Below the pieces are notes generated by a model. It was not told the DNA's origin. It worked only from the letters and a program-made list of their open reading frames with translations, and did no database searches. This document shows positions 57,419 to 62,590 of a DNA stretch of 64,000 nucleotides, one piece after another (position 1 is the stretch's first letter; each line of letters opens with the position of its first letter). The position numbers were made by a program, and so were the translations under genes. The DNA lies in assembly GCF_030817475.1 (NCBI RefSeq), contig NZ_JAUSZJ010000002.1, positions 5,284,626 to 5,348,625 of the forward strand. Reading direction: 5' to 3'. Source of the stretch: Streptomyces sp. V2I9 (GTDB lineage: Bacteria > Actinomycetota > Actinomycetes > Streptomycetales > Streptomycetaceae).

Positions 57419-58993
57419 ATGCCCCCCACGCTCGCCTCGCTCGTCCAGCACCCGGCACTCAAGCTCGTCGTGCGGGCGGGTGCTGACCGGCTCGGTACGC
57501 CCGTGCGGTGGGCCCATGCCAGTGAGCTGGCCGACCCCGTCCCGTACATGGACGGCGGCGAACTCCTCCTGGTGACCGCCACCAACCTTGACGCCGAGGA
57601 CGCCGAGGCCATGCGGCGCTACGTGCGGCGGCTGGACGCGGCCGGGGTCGCCGGAGTCGGGTTCGCGGTCGGCGTGAACTACGAGGACGTCCCGGCCGCT
57701 CTCGTGGAGGCCGCCGAGGAGGCCGGGCTGCCGCTCCTCGAAGTGCCGCGCCGCACCCCCTTCCTCGCCATCAGCAAGGCCGTCTCCGCCGCCATCGCCG
57801 CCGACCAGTACCGTGCGGTCACCGCCGGCTTCGAGGCCCAGCGCGAGTTGACAAAGGCCGCGCTCGCCGGGGACGGGCCCGCCGGTCTGCTCGCCCGGCT
57901 CGCCGCCCACGTCGACGGCTGGGCCGCCCTGTACGACGCCTCCGGCGCGGTCCTCGCCGCCGCCCCCGAGTGGGCCGCCCGCCGTGCCGCCCGCCTCACC
58001 CCCGACGTCGAACGCCTCCGGGACCGCCCCGCCCCCGCCAGCGTAGTCGTCGGCGGCAGCGACGACCGGGTCGAGCTCCAGTCGCTCGGCACCGGCAGAC
58101 GGGCCCGCGGCGCGCTGGCCGTCGGCACCGGAGCCGCGCTGGGCACCGCCGAGCGGTACGCCGTGAACTCCGCCGTGGCCCTCCTCACCCTGACCACCGC
58201 CCGCTCCCGCGCCCTCCACGGCGCGGAACAGCGCCTGGGCGCCGCCGTCCTGCGCATGTTGCTCGCCGGACAGTCCGACCATGCCCGCGCCGTCGCCGGA
58301 GACCTCTACGGCGACCTGCTCGACACCCCGTTCCGGCTGCTCATCGCCGAGGCCGCCGCGCCCGCCGGGGCCGAGGCGCTCACCGAGACGATGGAGGCCG
58401 CCGCCGCCCGCACCGGCGAGGCGCTGCTCCTGGTCCCGGAGGCCGAGCGCGTCCTCGTGCTGGCGGCCGACGGCGGCGCCGCCGTCGCCGCGTGCGCCGC
58501 CTACGCCGCGGCCCAGGACGAGCGCGGCCCGCGCGAGGGCGGCGCCGACGACAGCGACGTCGTCGTGGGGCTCTCCGCGCCCTCGGGACCGATCGCCGTC
58601 TCCGCCGCGTACAAACAGGCCGAACAGGCCCTGTCCGTCGCGCGCCGCCGGGGCAGGGCGCTGGTCGAGCACGAGGAGCTGGCGACCGGCTCGGTGCTGC
58701 CGCTGCTCGCCGACGACGCGGTACGCGCCTTCGCCGACGGCATGCTCCGCGCGCTGTACGAGCACGACGCCAAGGGCCGCGGCGACCTCGTGGCCTCCCT
58801 GCGTGCCTGGCTCTCCCGTCACGGCCAGTGGGACGCCGCGGCCGCCGACCTCGGGGTGCACCGGCACACCCTGCGCTACCGGATGCGCCGGGTGGAGGAG
58901 ATCCTGGGCCGCTCGCTGGACGACCCGGACGTCCGCATGGAGCTGTGGCTCGCCCTCAAGGCGACCGACGCGGCGGCCCCCGCCGAGGGGTGA
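57419..58993 (+). CDS. PucR-family transcriptional regulator
   Basis: A 524-residue regulator. The N-terminal PucR domain (residues 1-130) contains SELADPVPYMDGGELLLVTA and LVEAAEEAGLPLLEVPRRTPF. A GGDEF-like middle region follows, and the C-terminal helix-turn-helix reads SLRAWLSRHGQWDAAAADLGVHRHTLRYRMRRVEEILGR at about 445-483, the family hallmark. Such regulators often control purine, amine or amino-acid catabolism; the target here is unknown. The region before it (57208-57418) has no gene; a 55-nt gap separates it from the next regulator. Confidence 0.93.
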   Translation: MPPTLASLVQHPALKLVVRAGADRLGTPVRWAHASELADPVPYMDGGELLLVTATNLDAEDAEAMRRYVRRLDAAGVAGVGFAVGVNYEDVPAALVEAAEEAGLPLLEVPRRTPFLAISKAVSAAIAADQYRAVTAGFEAQRELTKAALAGDGPAGLLARLAAHVDGWAALYDASGAVLAAAPEWAARRAARLTPDVERLRDRPAPASVVVGGSDDRVELQSLGTGRRARGALAVGTGAALGTAERYAVNSAVALLTLTTARSRALHGAEQRLGAAVLRMLLAGQSDHARAVAGDLYGDLLDTPFRLLIAEAAAPAGAEALTETMEAAAARTGEALLLVPEAERVLVLAADGGAAVAACAAYAAAQDERGPREGGADDSDVVVGLSAPSGPIAVSAAYKQAEQALSVARRRGRALVEHEELATGSVLPLLADDAVRAFADGMLRALYEHDAKGRGDLVASLRAWLSRHGQWDAAAADLGVHRHTLRYRMRRVEEILGRSLDDPDVRMELWLALKATDAAAPAEG

Positions 58994-59010
58994 ACGGCCG
59001 ATCCGGCATC

Positions 59011-59042
59011 GTATTGCATCGTTCGGTACAAAACCCTAGAGT
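59011..59042 (+). promoter_or_regulatory. TetR gene promoter with palindromic operator
   Basis: TTGCAT (59014-59019) and TAGAGT (59037-59042) with a 17-bp spacer make a promoter whose start point would fall at about the ATG at 59049, so the mRNA is probably leaderless. The 24-bp operator at 59011-59034 lies across the -35 and spacer. It matches the operator before the MFS gene at 17 of 24 positions in one orientation. Confidence 0.75.
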
Positions 59043-59048
59043 GCTGTC

Positions 59049-59645
59049 ATGGCCCGACCGCGACAGTTCGACGAGGAACGGGCCCTGGACGCCGCGATGC
59101 GCACCTTCTGGGAGTACGGCTACGAGGCCGCCTCCACCCGGGACCTGTGCGACGCGACGGGGCTGGGGCGCAGCAGCATCTACAACACCTTCCGGAGCAA
59201 GCGCGAGCTGTTCGCGCGCTCGCTCACGCGCTACCTGGACGCCATGGCGGACGCCCAGGACGCCGTACTCGACGACACGTCGCGCCCGCCGGGCGAGCGG
59301 GTGCGCGCCCTGCTCGACAAGATCGTGGCCGACGAGTTCGACCACCGCCCCGACGGTCGCAGTCTCGGGTGCCTGGGGGTCAACTCCACGGTCGAGCTGG
59401 CGGCCCGTGAACCGGAGGTCGCCCGGCTCCTGGACCGGGACGCCGCCCGCCGGCTGCGGAGCCTGTCCGCCGTCGTCGCCGCCGGACTGCGCGACGGCTC
59501 CATCGTCTCCGCGCGGGGTCCCGACGCTCTGGCCCGGTACCTCAACGCCGTCATCGGCGGTATGCGGATCGCCGCCCAGGGCGGGGCCGACCGGGCCGCC
59601 GTCCAGTCCGTGGCCGACACCGCGCTGGATGCCCTGACCCGCTGA
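59049..59645 (+). CDS. TetR-family regulator of the adjacent MFS gene
   Basis: A 198-residue TetR-family regulator. The DNA-binding domain is at about residues 8-52: ALDAAMRTFWEYGYEAASTRDLCDATGLGRSSIYNTFRSKRELF. The C-terminal domain resembles TetR_C regulators of multidrug pumps (LGCLGVNSTVELA, RYLNAVIGGMRIAAQGG). Its own promoter and the MFS gene's upstream region share the same palindrome, so it likely represses both itself and the exporter until a ligand binds. Confidence 0.92.
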   Translation: MARPRQFDEERALDAAMRTFWEYGYEAASTRDLCDATGLGRSSIYNTFRSKRELFARSLTRYLDAMADAQDAVLDDTSRPPGERVRALLDKIVADEFDHRPDGRSLGCLGVNSTVELAAREPEVARLLDRDAARRLRSLSAVVAAGLRDGSIVSARGPDALARYLNAVIGGMRIAAQGGADRAAVQSVADTALDALTR

Positions 59646-59712
59646 GCGCCGCTCCGGCCGCACGGCCTGCCCGCCCGCCCTGCCGGAGCCGGGCGGGTGC
59701 CGCCATGCCCAC

Positions 59713-59736
59713 GTTTTGAACTGATCAATACAAAAC
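59713..59736. promoter_or_regulatory. Operator upstream of the MFS gene
   Basis: A 24-bp imperfect palindrome, arms GTTTTGAACTGATC and its complement, 20 of 24 positions symmetric, centred on TGATCA. A TTGAAC -35-like hexamer lies inside it. The surrounding sequence is unusually AT-rich for this chromosome. Confidence 0.8.
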
Positions 59737-59760
59737 AATGTTTCCAAGGGGGAACCCACC

Positions 59761-61056
59761 GTGCCACGTGCTGTCCATGTACTGGCCTTCGGCATCTTCG
59801 CCATGGTCACCAGCGAATTCGTCGTCGCCGGACTGATGCCGCAGATGGCCGAGGGGCTGAACGTCACCGTTCCGCGGATCGGCTACCTGATCACCGTCTT
59901 CGCCCTCTCCATGGCGTTCGGCGGCCCGCTGCTCTCCGTCGCCCTGCTGCGGCTGCCGCCCAGGACCGCGCTCATGGTCCTCTTCCCGCTCTTCCTGGCC
60001 GGCAACGTGCTCGCCGCCACCGCGTCCGGCTACCCGGTCATGGTGGTCGCGCGGGTGATCACCGGAGTCGCCTCGCAGGCGTTCTTCGGCGTCGCGATCT
60101 CGCTCGGCTCCCAGCTCACCCGCCCCGAACAGCGCGGCCGGGCCATGGCGGTCATCCTCAACGGCCTGATGCTCGGCACCCTGCTCGGACTCCCGCTGGC
60201 CACCCTGACCGGTGAGCGGTACGGCTGGCGGGCCGCGTTCTGGGCCATCTCCGCACTGACGGTCGCCGCCGCACTGTGCACCGCCGTCGGCGTGCGCCGG
60301 ACGGGCCGGCCGGAGGGCAGTGGCACCTTCCGCTCCGAGCTGACGGCCTTCCGCGTTCCCCGGCTCTGGCTCACCCTGCTGACCAGCACCATGGTCATCG
60401 GCGCGACCTTCTCCGCCTTCAGCTACCTCAACCCGATCCTCACCGAGGTCACCGGCTTCTCCCCGGGCACCGTCCCGCTGCTGCTCCTCGCGTACGGCGC
60501 CGCCACGGTCGTCGGCAACACCGTGGTCGGCCGGCTCGCCGACCGGCACACCCTTCCCGTCCTGCTCGGCGGCCTGTCCCTGAACGCGGTGTTCCTCGCC
60601 GGGTTCGCCCTGCTGGCCGGGGTGGAGGCCGGGGCGGTGCTCTGCATGCTGGGCGTCGGCCTGGTCGGGGTCACCATGAACCCGGCCCTGGTCACCCGGG
60701 TGCAGCGGACCGGCAACGCCCGGCCGCTCGTCAACACGGTGCACAGCTCCTTCATCACCCTCGGCGTGGTGCTCGGCTCCGCGCTGGGCGGCCTGGGCCT
60801 CGACCGGTTCGGCCCCAGGGCCCCGCTCTGGCTGGGCGTGGCCCTCGCGGTGGCCGGCCTGCTCACCCTCGTACCGGATCTGCTCCGGCGCGGGAAGCCG
60901 CGCGGGGCGGTCGGGCCGGACGGCCGTTCCGCCGAGGGCAGCCTCTCCGTCGAGGAAGACTTCGCCGCCGGTGAAGGACCGTCCGCCGGTGAGGGCCCTT
61001 CCGCCAATTCGGAGCAGCGGGTCACCGCTCCGCTCCACGCCGGACAAACCCCTTGA
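59761..61056 (+). CDS. MFS transporter, DHA1-type efflux
   Basis: A 431-residue major facilitator with twelve predicted segments, for example IGYLITVFALSMAFGGPLLSVALLRL in helices 2-3 and AFFGVAISLGSQLTRPEQRGRAMAVILNGLMLGTLLGLPLATL, with the GMALGPxxG-like motif C near the loop 4-5 region. Similarity is to arabinose/chloramphenicol-efflux (AraJ/Cmx-like) DHA1 exporters. A hydrophilic Ser/Gly/Glu-rich C-terminal tail is present. GTG start with GGGGGA. The TetR regulator upstream suggests induction by its substrate. Confidence 0.92.
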   Translation: MPRAVHVLAFGIFAMVTSEFVVAGLMPQMAEGLNVTVPRIGYLITVFALSMAFGGPLLSVALLRLPPRTALMVLFPLFLAGNVLAATASGYPVMVVARVITGVASQAFFGVAISLGSQLTRPEQRGRAMAVILNGLMLGTLLGLPLATLTGERYGWRAAFWAISALTVAAALCTAVGVRRTGRPEGSGTFRSELTAFRVPRLWLTLLTSTMVIGATFSAFSYLNPILTEVTGFSPGTVPLLLLAYGAATVVGNTVVGRLADRHTLPVLLGGLSLNAVFLAGFALLAGVEAGAVLCMLGVGLVGVTMNPALVTRVQRTGNARPLVNTVHSSFITLGVVLGSALGGLGLDRFGPRAPLWLGVALAVAGLLTLVPDLLRRGKPRGAVGPDGRSAEGSLSVEEDFAAGEGPSAGEGPSANSEQRVTAPLHAGQTP

Positions 61057-61144
61057 CGGCCTTCCCGTCCTACCGTGGGACGACAGCGGACCCCCTCCGG
61101 GCACCCGCCACCTCCGTCACGACCTCCGAAGGGCCGGAACCTCC

Positions 61145-62590
61145 ATGACTTCGCCCCACGCCTTCTGGGTGGCCGGCCGCCGGGCCACCGGTGCCGACAG
61201 CTTCGACGTCACCAACCCGTACGACGGACGTCTTGTCGGCACCGTCAGCGTGCCGACCGATGCCCAGGTCGAGGAGGCCGTCGCCGCCGCCCACGCCGTA
61301 CGCGACGAGTTCGCCGCCACCCCGGCGCACGTCCGGGCCGCCGCGCTCGACCACGTCGTACGGCGGCTCGGGGAGCGCACCGAGGAGATCGCCCAACTGA
61401 TCTCGGCGGAGAACGGCAAGCCGATCAAGTGGGCCCGCGGCGAGGTCGGCCGGGCCGTGTCCGTGTTCCGGTTCGCCGCCGAGGAGGCCCGCCGCTTCAA
61501 CGGCGGCGAGGCCCAGCGGCTCGACACCGACCTCGGCGGCACCGGCCGTCTCGGGCTGACCCGGCGCTTCCCGCGCGGGGCCGTCCTCGGCATCGCGCCC
61601 TTCAACTTCCCGCTGAACCTCAGCGCCCACAAGGTCGCCCCGGCCATCGCCGTCGGCGCCCCGATCATCCTCAAGCCCGCCCCGGCGACCCCCATCTCGT
61701 CCCTCATCCTGGGCGAGCTGCTGGCCGAGACCGACCTCCCGGCCGGCTCCTGGTCCGTCCTGACGGTCCCGAACGACAAGATGCCCGCGCTGGTCCAGGA
61801 CGAGCGGCTGCCGGTCATCTCCTTCACCGGCTCGGGCCCCGTCGGCTACGCGATCATGGAATCGGTGCCCCGCAAGCACTGCACCCTGGAGCTGGGCGGC
61901 AACGGCGCGGCGGTCGTGCTCGGCGACTACGCCTCCGACGAGGACCTCGACTGGGCGGCCACCCGGATCGCCACCTTCTCCAACTACCAGGGCGGCCAGT
62001 CCTGCATCTCGGTGCAGCGCGTCATCGCCGACGCCTCGGTCTACGACCGGCTCGTCCCGAAGATCGTCGCCGCCGTCGAGGCCCTGGTCACCGGCGACCC
62101 GGCCGACGCCGCCACCGACGTCGGCCCGCTGGTCAGCGAGGACGCGGCCAAGCGCGTCGAGTCCTGGGTCGACGAGGCCGTGAGGGGCGGCGCGGAGCTG
62201 CTCACCGGCGGCGAGCGGGACGGGGCCACCTACGCTCCGACGGTCCTGGCGGACCTCCCCGACGACGTGAAGCTCTCCTGCGAGGAGGTCTTCGGACCGG
62301 TCATGTCCCTCCGGAAGGTCGACGGCGAGGCCGAGGCGTTCGCCGCCGTCAACTCCTCCAAGTACGGCCTCCAGGCGGGCGTGTTCACCCATGACCTGCA
62401 GACCGCCTTCCGCGCCCACCGCGCGCTGGAGGTCGGCGGCGTGATCATCGGCGACGTCCCGTCGTACCGCGCCGACCAGATGCCGTACGGCGGCGCCAAG
62501 CAGTCCGGCGTCGGCCGCGAGGGCGTGCGCTACGCCATGGACGACTACACCTACGAGCGCGTCCTGGTCCTCACCGGCCTCGCGCTGTAG
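61145..62590 (+). CDS. Aldehyde dehydrogenase, unknown substrate
   Basis: A 481-residue aldehyde dehydrogenase. Catalytic Cys is in QGGQSCISVQRV, Glu in TLELGGNGA, and the cofactor loop in APFNFPLNLSAHKVAPAIAVG. The sequence differs from the aminobutyraldehyde enzymes of the window and resembles glyceraldehyde-phosphate- or lactaldehyde-type members. Its 88-bp gap after the MFS gene suggests co-transcription, raising the possibility that it processes the exporter's substrate or a related aldehyde. ATG at 61145 after GAAGGG. Confidence 0.88.
   Translation: MTSPHAFWVAGRRATGADSFDVTNPYDGRLVGTVSVPTDAQVEEAVAAAHAVRDEFAATPAHVRAAALDHVVRRLGERTEEIAQLISAENGKPIKWARGEVGRAVSVFRFAAEEARRFNGGEAQRLDTDLGGTGRLGLTRRFPRGAVLGIAPFNFPLNLSAHKVAPAIAVGAPIILKPAPATPISSLILGELLAETDLPAGSWSVLTVPNDKMPALVQDERLPVISFTGSGPVGYAIMESVPRKHCTLELGGNGAAVVLGDYASDEDLDWAATRIATFSNYQGGQSCISVQRVIADASVYDRLVPKIVAAVEALVTGDPADAATDVGPLVSEDAAKRVESWVDEAVRGGAELLTGGERDGATYAPTVLADLPDDVKLSCEEVFGPVMSLRKVDGEAEAFAAVNSSKYGLQAGVFTHDLQTAFRAHRALEVGGVIIGDVPSYRADQMPYGGAKQSGVGREGVRYAMDDYTYERVLVLTGLAL

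Follow-up and report, generated by a model that had tools for sequence, protein, structure and literature searches.

The locus lies on the plus strand at positions 57419-62590 of the window, i.e. the whole 64,000-nucleotide stretch of DNA that was analysed (G000:C2:5284626-5348625), where genes for a PucR-type regulator, a TetR-family repressor, an MFS exporter and an aldehyde dehydrogenase (aldh) follow one another in that order. Its features are:

59011..59034, + strand, putative operator O1, GTATTGCATCGTTCGGTACAAAAC, spanning the -35 and spacer of the TetR promoter
59014..59019, + strand, -35-like hexamer TTGCAT, inside O1
59037..59042, + strand, -10 hexamer TAGAGT, 6 nt before the ATG and separated from TTGCAT by a 17-nt spacer
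59049..59645, + strand, TetR-family repressor, 198 aa, with an invariant G107-C108; leaderless mRNA predicted
59704..59710, + strand, CATGCCC block, directly 5' of O2, conserved in most of 85 relatives
59713..59736, + strand, putative operator O2, GTTTTGAACTGATCAATACAAAAC, 5' of the exporter gene
59746..59752, + strand, Shine-Dalgarno-like AAGGGGG of the exporter gene
59761..61056, + strand, MFS exporter, 431 aa, GTG start
61145-62590, + strand, aldehyde dehydrogenase, 88 bp 3' of the exporter gene

The TetR protein passed the model of the N-terminal HTH (PF00440, 54.3 bits against a gathering score of 24), and its structural model was helical and confident (mean pLDDT 92.4), the nearest PDB entries being TetR-family structures. 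The exporter passed MFS_1 (PF07690, 172.7 bits against a gathering score of 33.4). Its best NCBIfam model was that of the Cmx/CmrA chloramphenicol exporters (NF033135), yet the score of 299.6 bits was under the curated cut-off of 400, so that the Cmx/CmrA substrate cannot be carried over and chloramphenicol is not claimed as the substrate.

The 24-bp motif comprises 12 specified positions, over which mismatches were counted. The initial annotation had placed one copy before the TetR gene and one before the MFS gene, and nowhere else. Both were found exactly at O1 and O2, where the motif as noted reads on the minus strand with 0 mismatches each, and our hand count of the palindrome (20/24 for O2, 16/24 for O1) agreed with the 20 of 24 that had been given for the second site. 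Within the window, four strand-matches were observed at up to 3 mismatches, a number equalled in 0/100 shuffles, for a chance expectation of 0.07 (sd 0.29). The whole-genome search that had been suggested as a check was run on both strands of the 7.16-Mb genome (7,161,965 bases), and O1 and O2 proved to be the sole pair at up to 2/12 mismatches, without any third site. At the 3-mismatch level, 16 forward and 14 reverse matches were obtained, O1 and O2 included, versus 27 and 15 in a reversed-pattern control; the other genomic matches, all at 3 mismatches, were thus no commoner than in the control. One of these matches is present in six identical copies and was set aside because we take it to be 23S rRNA. 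When a broader pattern drawn up from the relatives was used (5 forward and 4 reverse matches in the genome vs 2 and 2 in the control), O1 and O2 were recovered at 0-1 mismatch. Further regulon members were not retained: the only candidates were five places at 3 mismatches to this broader pattern, three of them copies of one sequence.

TetR relatives were gathered from 295 genus genomes (68 with a match), 60 fetched regions and named species genomes (71 loci). Removal of two pucR-derived loci from the resulting 162 rows and merging of loci that share their first 150 aa left 131 TetR loci, in which the G154 locus (L025/L088) was not included. Our main counts concern the 103 non-redundant TetR loci at 48 % identity or more, and they do not equal numbers of independent evolutionary events because near-identical relatives were kept separate. 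The motif with which these relatives were scanned was derived solely from the window. O1 was recovered at up to 2/12 mismatches in 100/103 of them (37 with 0, 49 with 1 and 14 with 2 mismatches), ending 14-19 bp 5' of the TetR start; it was missing at this level from L137, L058 and L041, L058 having a 1-mismatch site 56 bp inside the extrapolated TetR start. A same-strand MFS homologue stands 3' of TetR in 98/103 loci. Among the 93 with a readable exporter start, O2 was present in 85 (17 with 0, 44 with 1 and 24 with 2 mismatches) and missing at the same level from eight, and both sites occurred together in 83 loci. Control stretches from the same loci reached 2 mismatches or fewer in 17/7,843 cases. 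When TetR identity fell below 48 %, O1 was found at up to 2 mismatches in only 9/28 loci. The genera represented at 48 % TetR identity or more in the named species genomes were Streptomyces, Saccharopolyspora, Goodfellowiella, Actinomadura, Nocardiopsis, Nocardia, Kitasatospora and Phytomonospora, and both sites are also there in Stackebrandtia, whose TetR is at 43 % identity.

A scan of 291 genus genomes with the strict motif returned 34 distinct places in 30 genomes, 32 of which are no more than 200 bp away from a tetR gene of this family; one genome was matched by the reversed-pattern control. The two exceptions were G058 (sister clade), where the place is 1.8 kb from a family TetR gene, and G158, which is without a family TetR. 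Among the 68 genomes with a TetR match, of which G294 was outside the scan, 29 were matched by the strict motif; it thus misses many TetR-bearing genomes, so that many sites deviate from the strict form. From the relatives' counts, the family operator is approximately GTATTGSAHCGNNCGNTCCAAAAC on the tetR side and GTTTTGNACTGATCNATCCAAAAC on the exporter side.

The initial annotation had read TTGCAT-17-TAGAGT as a clear promoter under the first site. Hexamers and spacer are there; the word clear is not warranted, as the hexamers agree with only 7/12 consensus positions by our own count and a consensus scan of 58950-59800 returned no promoter and no terminator. It is conservation among relatives, not a consensus score, that makes this promoter convincing. 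The TTG at O1 positions 4-6 is conserved at 98-100 %, and a TANNNT hexamer ends 6 nt (76 loci) or 7 nt (24 loci) before the TetR start in 100/100 O1-bearing relatives, a placement found in 3.5 % of shuffled tails. With the -35-like TTG inside O1 and the -10 element 3' of it, O1 lies over the -35 and spacer. The spacing from the operator TTG hexamer to the -10 element is 17 in 14 relatives, 18 in 38, 19 in 41, 20 in 6 and 21 in 1, i.e. 19 or more in 48/100, which is long for a standard promoter. No Shine-Dalgarno was seen before the TetR ATG at 59049, and SD-like motifs occur in 4/100 TetR leaders vs 79/85 exporter leaders. Together with the invariably start-proximal TANNNT, this bears out the earlier prediction of a leaderless TetR message, which looks conserved, with transcription most likely starting at the ATG. 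In S. coelicolor, 264 leaderless messages are reported, and the tetR message of Tn1721, which belongs to a TetR-TetA system, is likewise described as leaderless (PMC4681348).

These observations led us to propose that TetR and the exporter form a two-gene efflux switch in which TetR represses both its own gene and that of the exporter through O1 and O2 until released by an inducer, a reading to which we assign a probability of roughly 0.88. A TetR dimer would bind the same 24-bp palindromic operator at both sites and, at O1, would cover the -35 and spacer of the promoter that drives its own leaderless message, so that expression of both TetR and the exporter would be held low without inducer. 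The entry of a toxic small molecule into the cell would make the repressor let go, the exporter would be produced and pump the compound out, and the climbing TetR level would then reset the switch. We infer binding, repression, induction by the exported compound and the leaderless 5' end from sequence comparison. The self-repressed TetR-exporter switch of the initial annotation is therefore kept as regards the shared motif and the cover of the TetR promoter, on which relatives and genome scans agree; its suggestion that the aldehyde dehydrogenase may belong to the switch is not.

That suggestion was assessed on the neighbouring genes. A pucR match was found in 118/121 genus genomes, and the best 30 of the 118 loci were fetched. 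The tetR-mfs cassette sits behind pucR in two of the 30, namely the window and G056. In the 28 without the cassette, aldh comes directly after pucR in 22, stands about 1.3 kb off in 2 and did not appear in the 1.5-kb flank of the remaining 4; the pucR-aldh pairing is thus probably older than the insertion. Conversely, pucR and/or aldh adjoin only ten TetR loci, all at about 85 % TetR identity or more. A regulon that takes in aldh, with an exporter handling the aldehyde or its acid, would fit the short gap and common strand in the window and the recurrence of aldh after the exporter gene in nine further loci of the clade to which the window belongs. We regard it as very improbable, given the order of the cassette-free loci, the absence of aldh at 50 % identity or more from the remaining 121 non-redundant TetR loci (among all 131, 17 are shorter than 8 kb) and the lack of any operator before aldh in the genome motif scan. 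It was rejected, since in one Streptomyces clade the cassette separates pucR from aldh, a pair that is apparently older, and the neighbouring aldh and PucR genes are most likely outside the switch. In 53 long loci (TetR at 58 % identity or more), the flanking proteins form 21 groups, the largest comprising 15, 11 and 7 loci, with nothing common between groups at the thresholds used and any one flanking gene in at most 8/53 loci. As these flank groups are unrelated, the cassette looks free-standing and seems to have come to lie between these two genes, pucR and aldh, in one clade. The same flanks, with no gene common to more than 8/53 loci, gave no hint of the inducer.

Two other explanations concern the sites themselves. 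Each site alone is short and AT-rich, which would suit a chance resemblance; conservation in relatives and uniqueness in the genome leave this explanation a virtually negligible probability. TetR might also repress only itself, O2 then acting as a road-block or decoy and the exporter being made by read-through from tetR. The two genes are indeed co-directional with short gaps, and no conserved -10 hexamer was found 3' of O2 in the 85 exporter-side sites. This reading is nevertheless unlikely: O2 is far better conserved than its 3' flank, at a distance from the exporter start that varies from 9 to 136 bp, it has its own conserved CATGCCC block, and the exporter gene carries an SD-like motif in 79/85 relatives. 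Within the block, G at -5 and C at -2 are found in 87 % and 88 % of the 85 exporter-side sites, respectively, and the block fits neither the O2 palindrome nor any visible -10 element. Exporter starts were placed by homology in these comparisons, 3/85 being neither ATG nor GTG. The efflux switch with repression at both sites is thus the reading retained below. As side observations, the operator before the exporter is doubled in L030, L089 and L132, with copies 22-51 bp apart, and in L031 and L133 the tetR operator is intact, there is no second operator and the exporter looks truncated, its homology beginning about 20 bp after tetR and inside the protein, at residue 55 or 73.

How the repressor might be released was considered from the protein. 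In the fold search, CifR on its 26-bp operator was the closest (29-30 % identity, TM 0.82-0.83), followed by NemR (19 %); the profile search gave 2.2e-50 for CifR, 9.4e-46 for 2i10 and 7.1e-15 for NemR. TetR could be a thiol or electrophile sensor that is released by covalent modification of Cys108 instead of by reversible drug binding, in the manner of NemR, AltR and possibly CifR, the pump removing reactive compounds, e.g. quinones or epoxides. The G107-C108 pair is invariant in 103/103 relatives and in 27/27 more distant ones, a further one being too short to be counted. In the profile alignment it coincides with NemR G105-C106, which makes thiol sensing possible, and Cys108 aligns with CifR Cys107, a Ser in 6nsm (titled C107S). 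Both NemR (40.7 bits) and, by a narrow pass, the window TetR (29.6 bits) exceed the cut-off of 27 of the C-terminal domain PF16925 (TetR_C_13). NemR Cys106 serves bleach sensing (PMC8748444, PMC3739934), and AltR Cys100 serves thiosulfinate sensing (PMC13178969), AltR being likened here by description only. Moreover, tetR comes after a RidA-like gene at L065, L075 and L076, three loci of more distant relatives. Against this, a cysteine at the Cys108 position is common in the domain group, as it occurs in 2i10, 3qbm and 3knw by profile alignment, and, by eye, the genome's other strong PF16925 protein has a GGC motif at a like place, so that conservation need not mean sensing. Electrophiles are reported to be served by other NemR cysteines (21 and 116; PMC3739934). 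In Corynebacterium, the TetR repressor CssR, a neighbour of an ABC exporter, makes no use of its cysteines, which are located at other positions (17 and 58; PMC8176726). In the flanks covered, no redox or detoxification enzyme was seen to accompany the cassette. The invariance of Cys108 therefore backs thiol sensing weakly, and we hold this mode of release to be possible rather than probable. More doubtful still is the fuller proposal that the cassette is an actinobacterial NemR/CifR counterpart, i.e. a covalent Cys108 sensor of thiol/epoxide type with a dedicated exporter of reactive natural products, a module of two genes that would have passed from one actinomycete genus to another with its 24-bp operator fixed and its repressor message leaderless.

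The efflux switch proposed here can be set beside known systems. CifR of Pseudomonas aeruginosa, which has a role in the epoxide response, is the best solved relative by profile and fold and shares the Gly-Cys; it was crystallised on a 26-bp operator according to the entry title, and was compared with the window TetR by protein alone. NemR of E. coli has the same C-terminal family and the same cysteine position, but it is only 19 % identical to the window TetR and a reductase gene comes after nemR. Both NemR and AltR of Pantoea ananatis are autoregulated via an inverted repeat; AltR differs in that its target is a tolerance cluster rather than an MFS gene of this type, and in the operators given for it (PMC13178969). 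TetR-TetA (Tn10/Tn1721) likewise combines a TetR-family repressor with palindromic operators at its own and the exporter promoters; there, the genes are divergent around one intergenic region with two 15-bp operators (PMC3511530), whereas those of the window are co-directional with one 24-bp operator each. DitR-MfsBC of Stenotrophomonas maltophilia, likened by description, also has a TetR by MFS genes, promoter-overlapping sites and cysteine dependence; it differs by three boxes of the CATACN5GTATG type and by its cysteines, Cys92 and Cys127 (PMC9342713). The operators tabulated in PMC3511530 for seven other Streptomyces TetR proteins differ by eye from O1 and O2. Among the literature matches listed, including those for GTTTTGTAC with TetR, we recognised no description of this TetR-MFS pair or of its operator. 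The PqrA-PqrB pair of S. coelicolor is a paraquat pair.

The cassette is very probably, on sequence grounds, a TetR-MFS efflux switch of an ordinary biological kind, conserved and self-controlled. It would define a regulon made of one TetR subgroup, one 24-bp operator and one exporter in many actinomycetes. TetR-exporter pairs can serve as parts of biosensors and help to identify pump substrates, and the uniform start-proximal promoter under the operator provides a natural series for the study of leaderless repressor expression.

The exporters themselves fall into two groups, 76 of the 93 readable ones being at 57 % identity or more to that of the window and 17 below 45 %, so that the same regulator and operator can precede two exporter lineages. 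Under the same TetR subgroup, the second lineage may have been re-paired, or regulator and exporter may have diverged at different rates. The same operators are found in the examples of this lineage (17 loci) L049, L051, L054, L143, L145 and L150.

Other loci depart from this arrangement. In 5/103 (L050, L053, L056, L139 and L155), the own-promoter operator is present with no MFS homologue within 3 kb, as at the G154 locus (L088), which also has the own-promoter operator and no MFS homologue nearby; L050 and L056 seemingly have another MFS gene, convergent with tetR. Protein alignment A1 covers 40 sequences (the window and 39 named loci), some of which are short by a few C-end residues. Sister clades at 40-45 % TetR identity (L063, L065, L071, L074, L075, L076 and L094) are arranged otherwise, tetR coming after the MFS gene in L063, L065, L071, L074 and L094; of the RidA-like proteins in this group, that of L076 was the one scanned with Pfam. 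Operator-like sites precede the MFS gene there or, in L076, the RidA gene, and several far sites, at the same loci as the control stretches, resemble those of these clades. In L071 and L074, the TetR-side site reads GGTTTTGTACGGGCGCTACAAAAC, with a half-site gap one base shorter.
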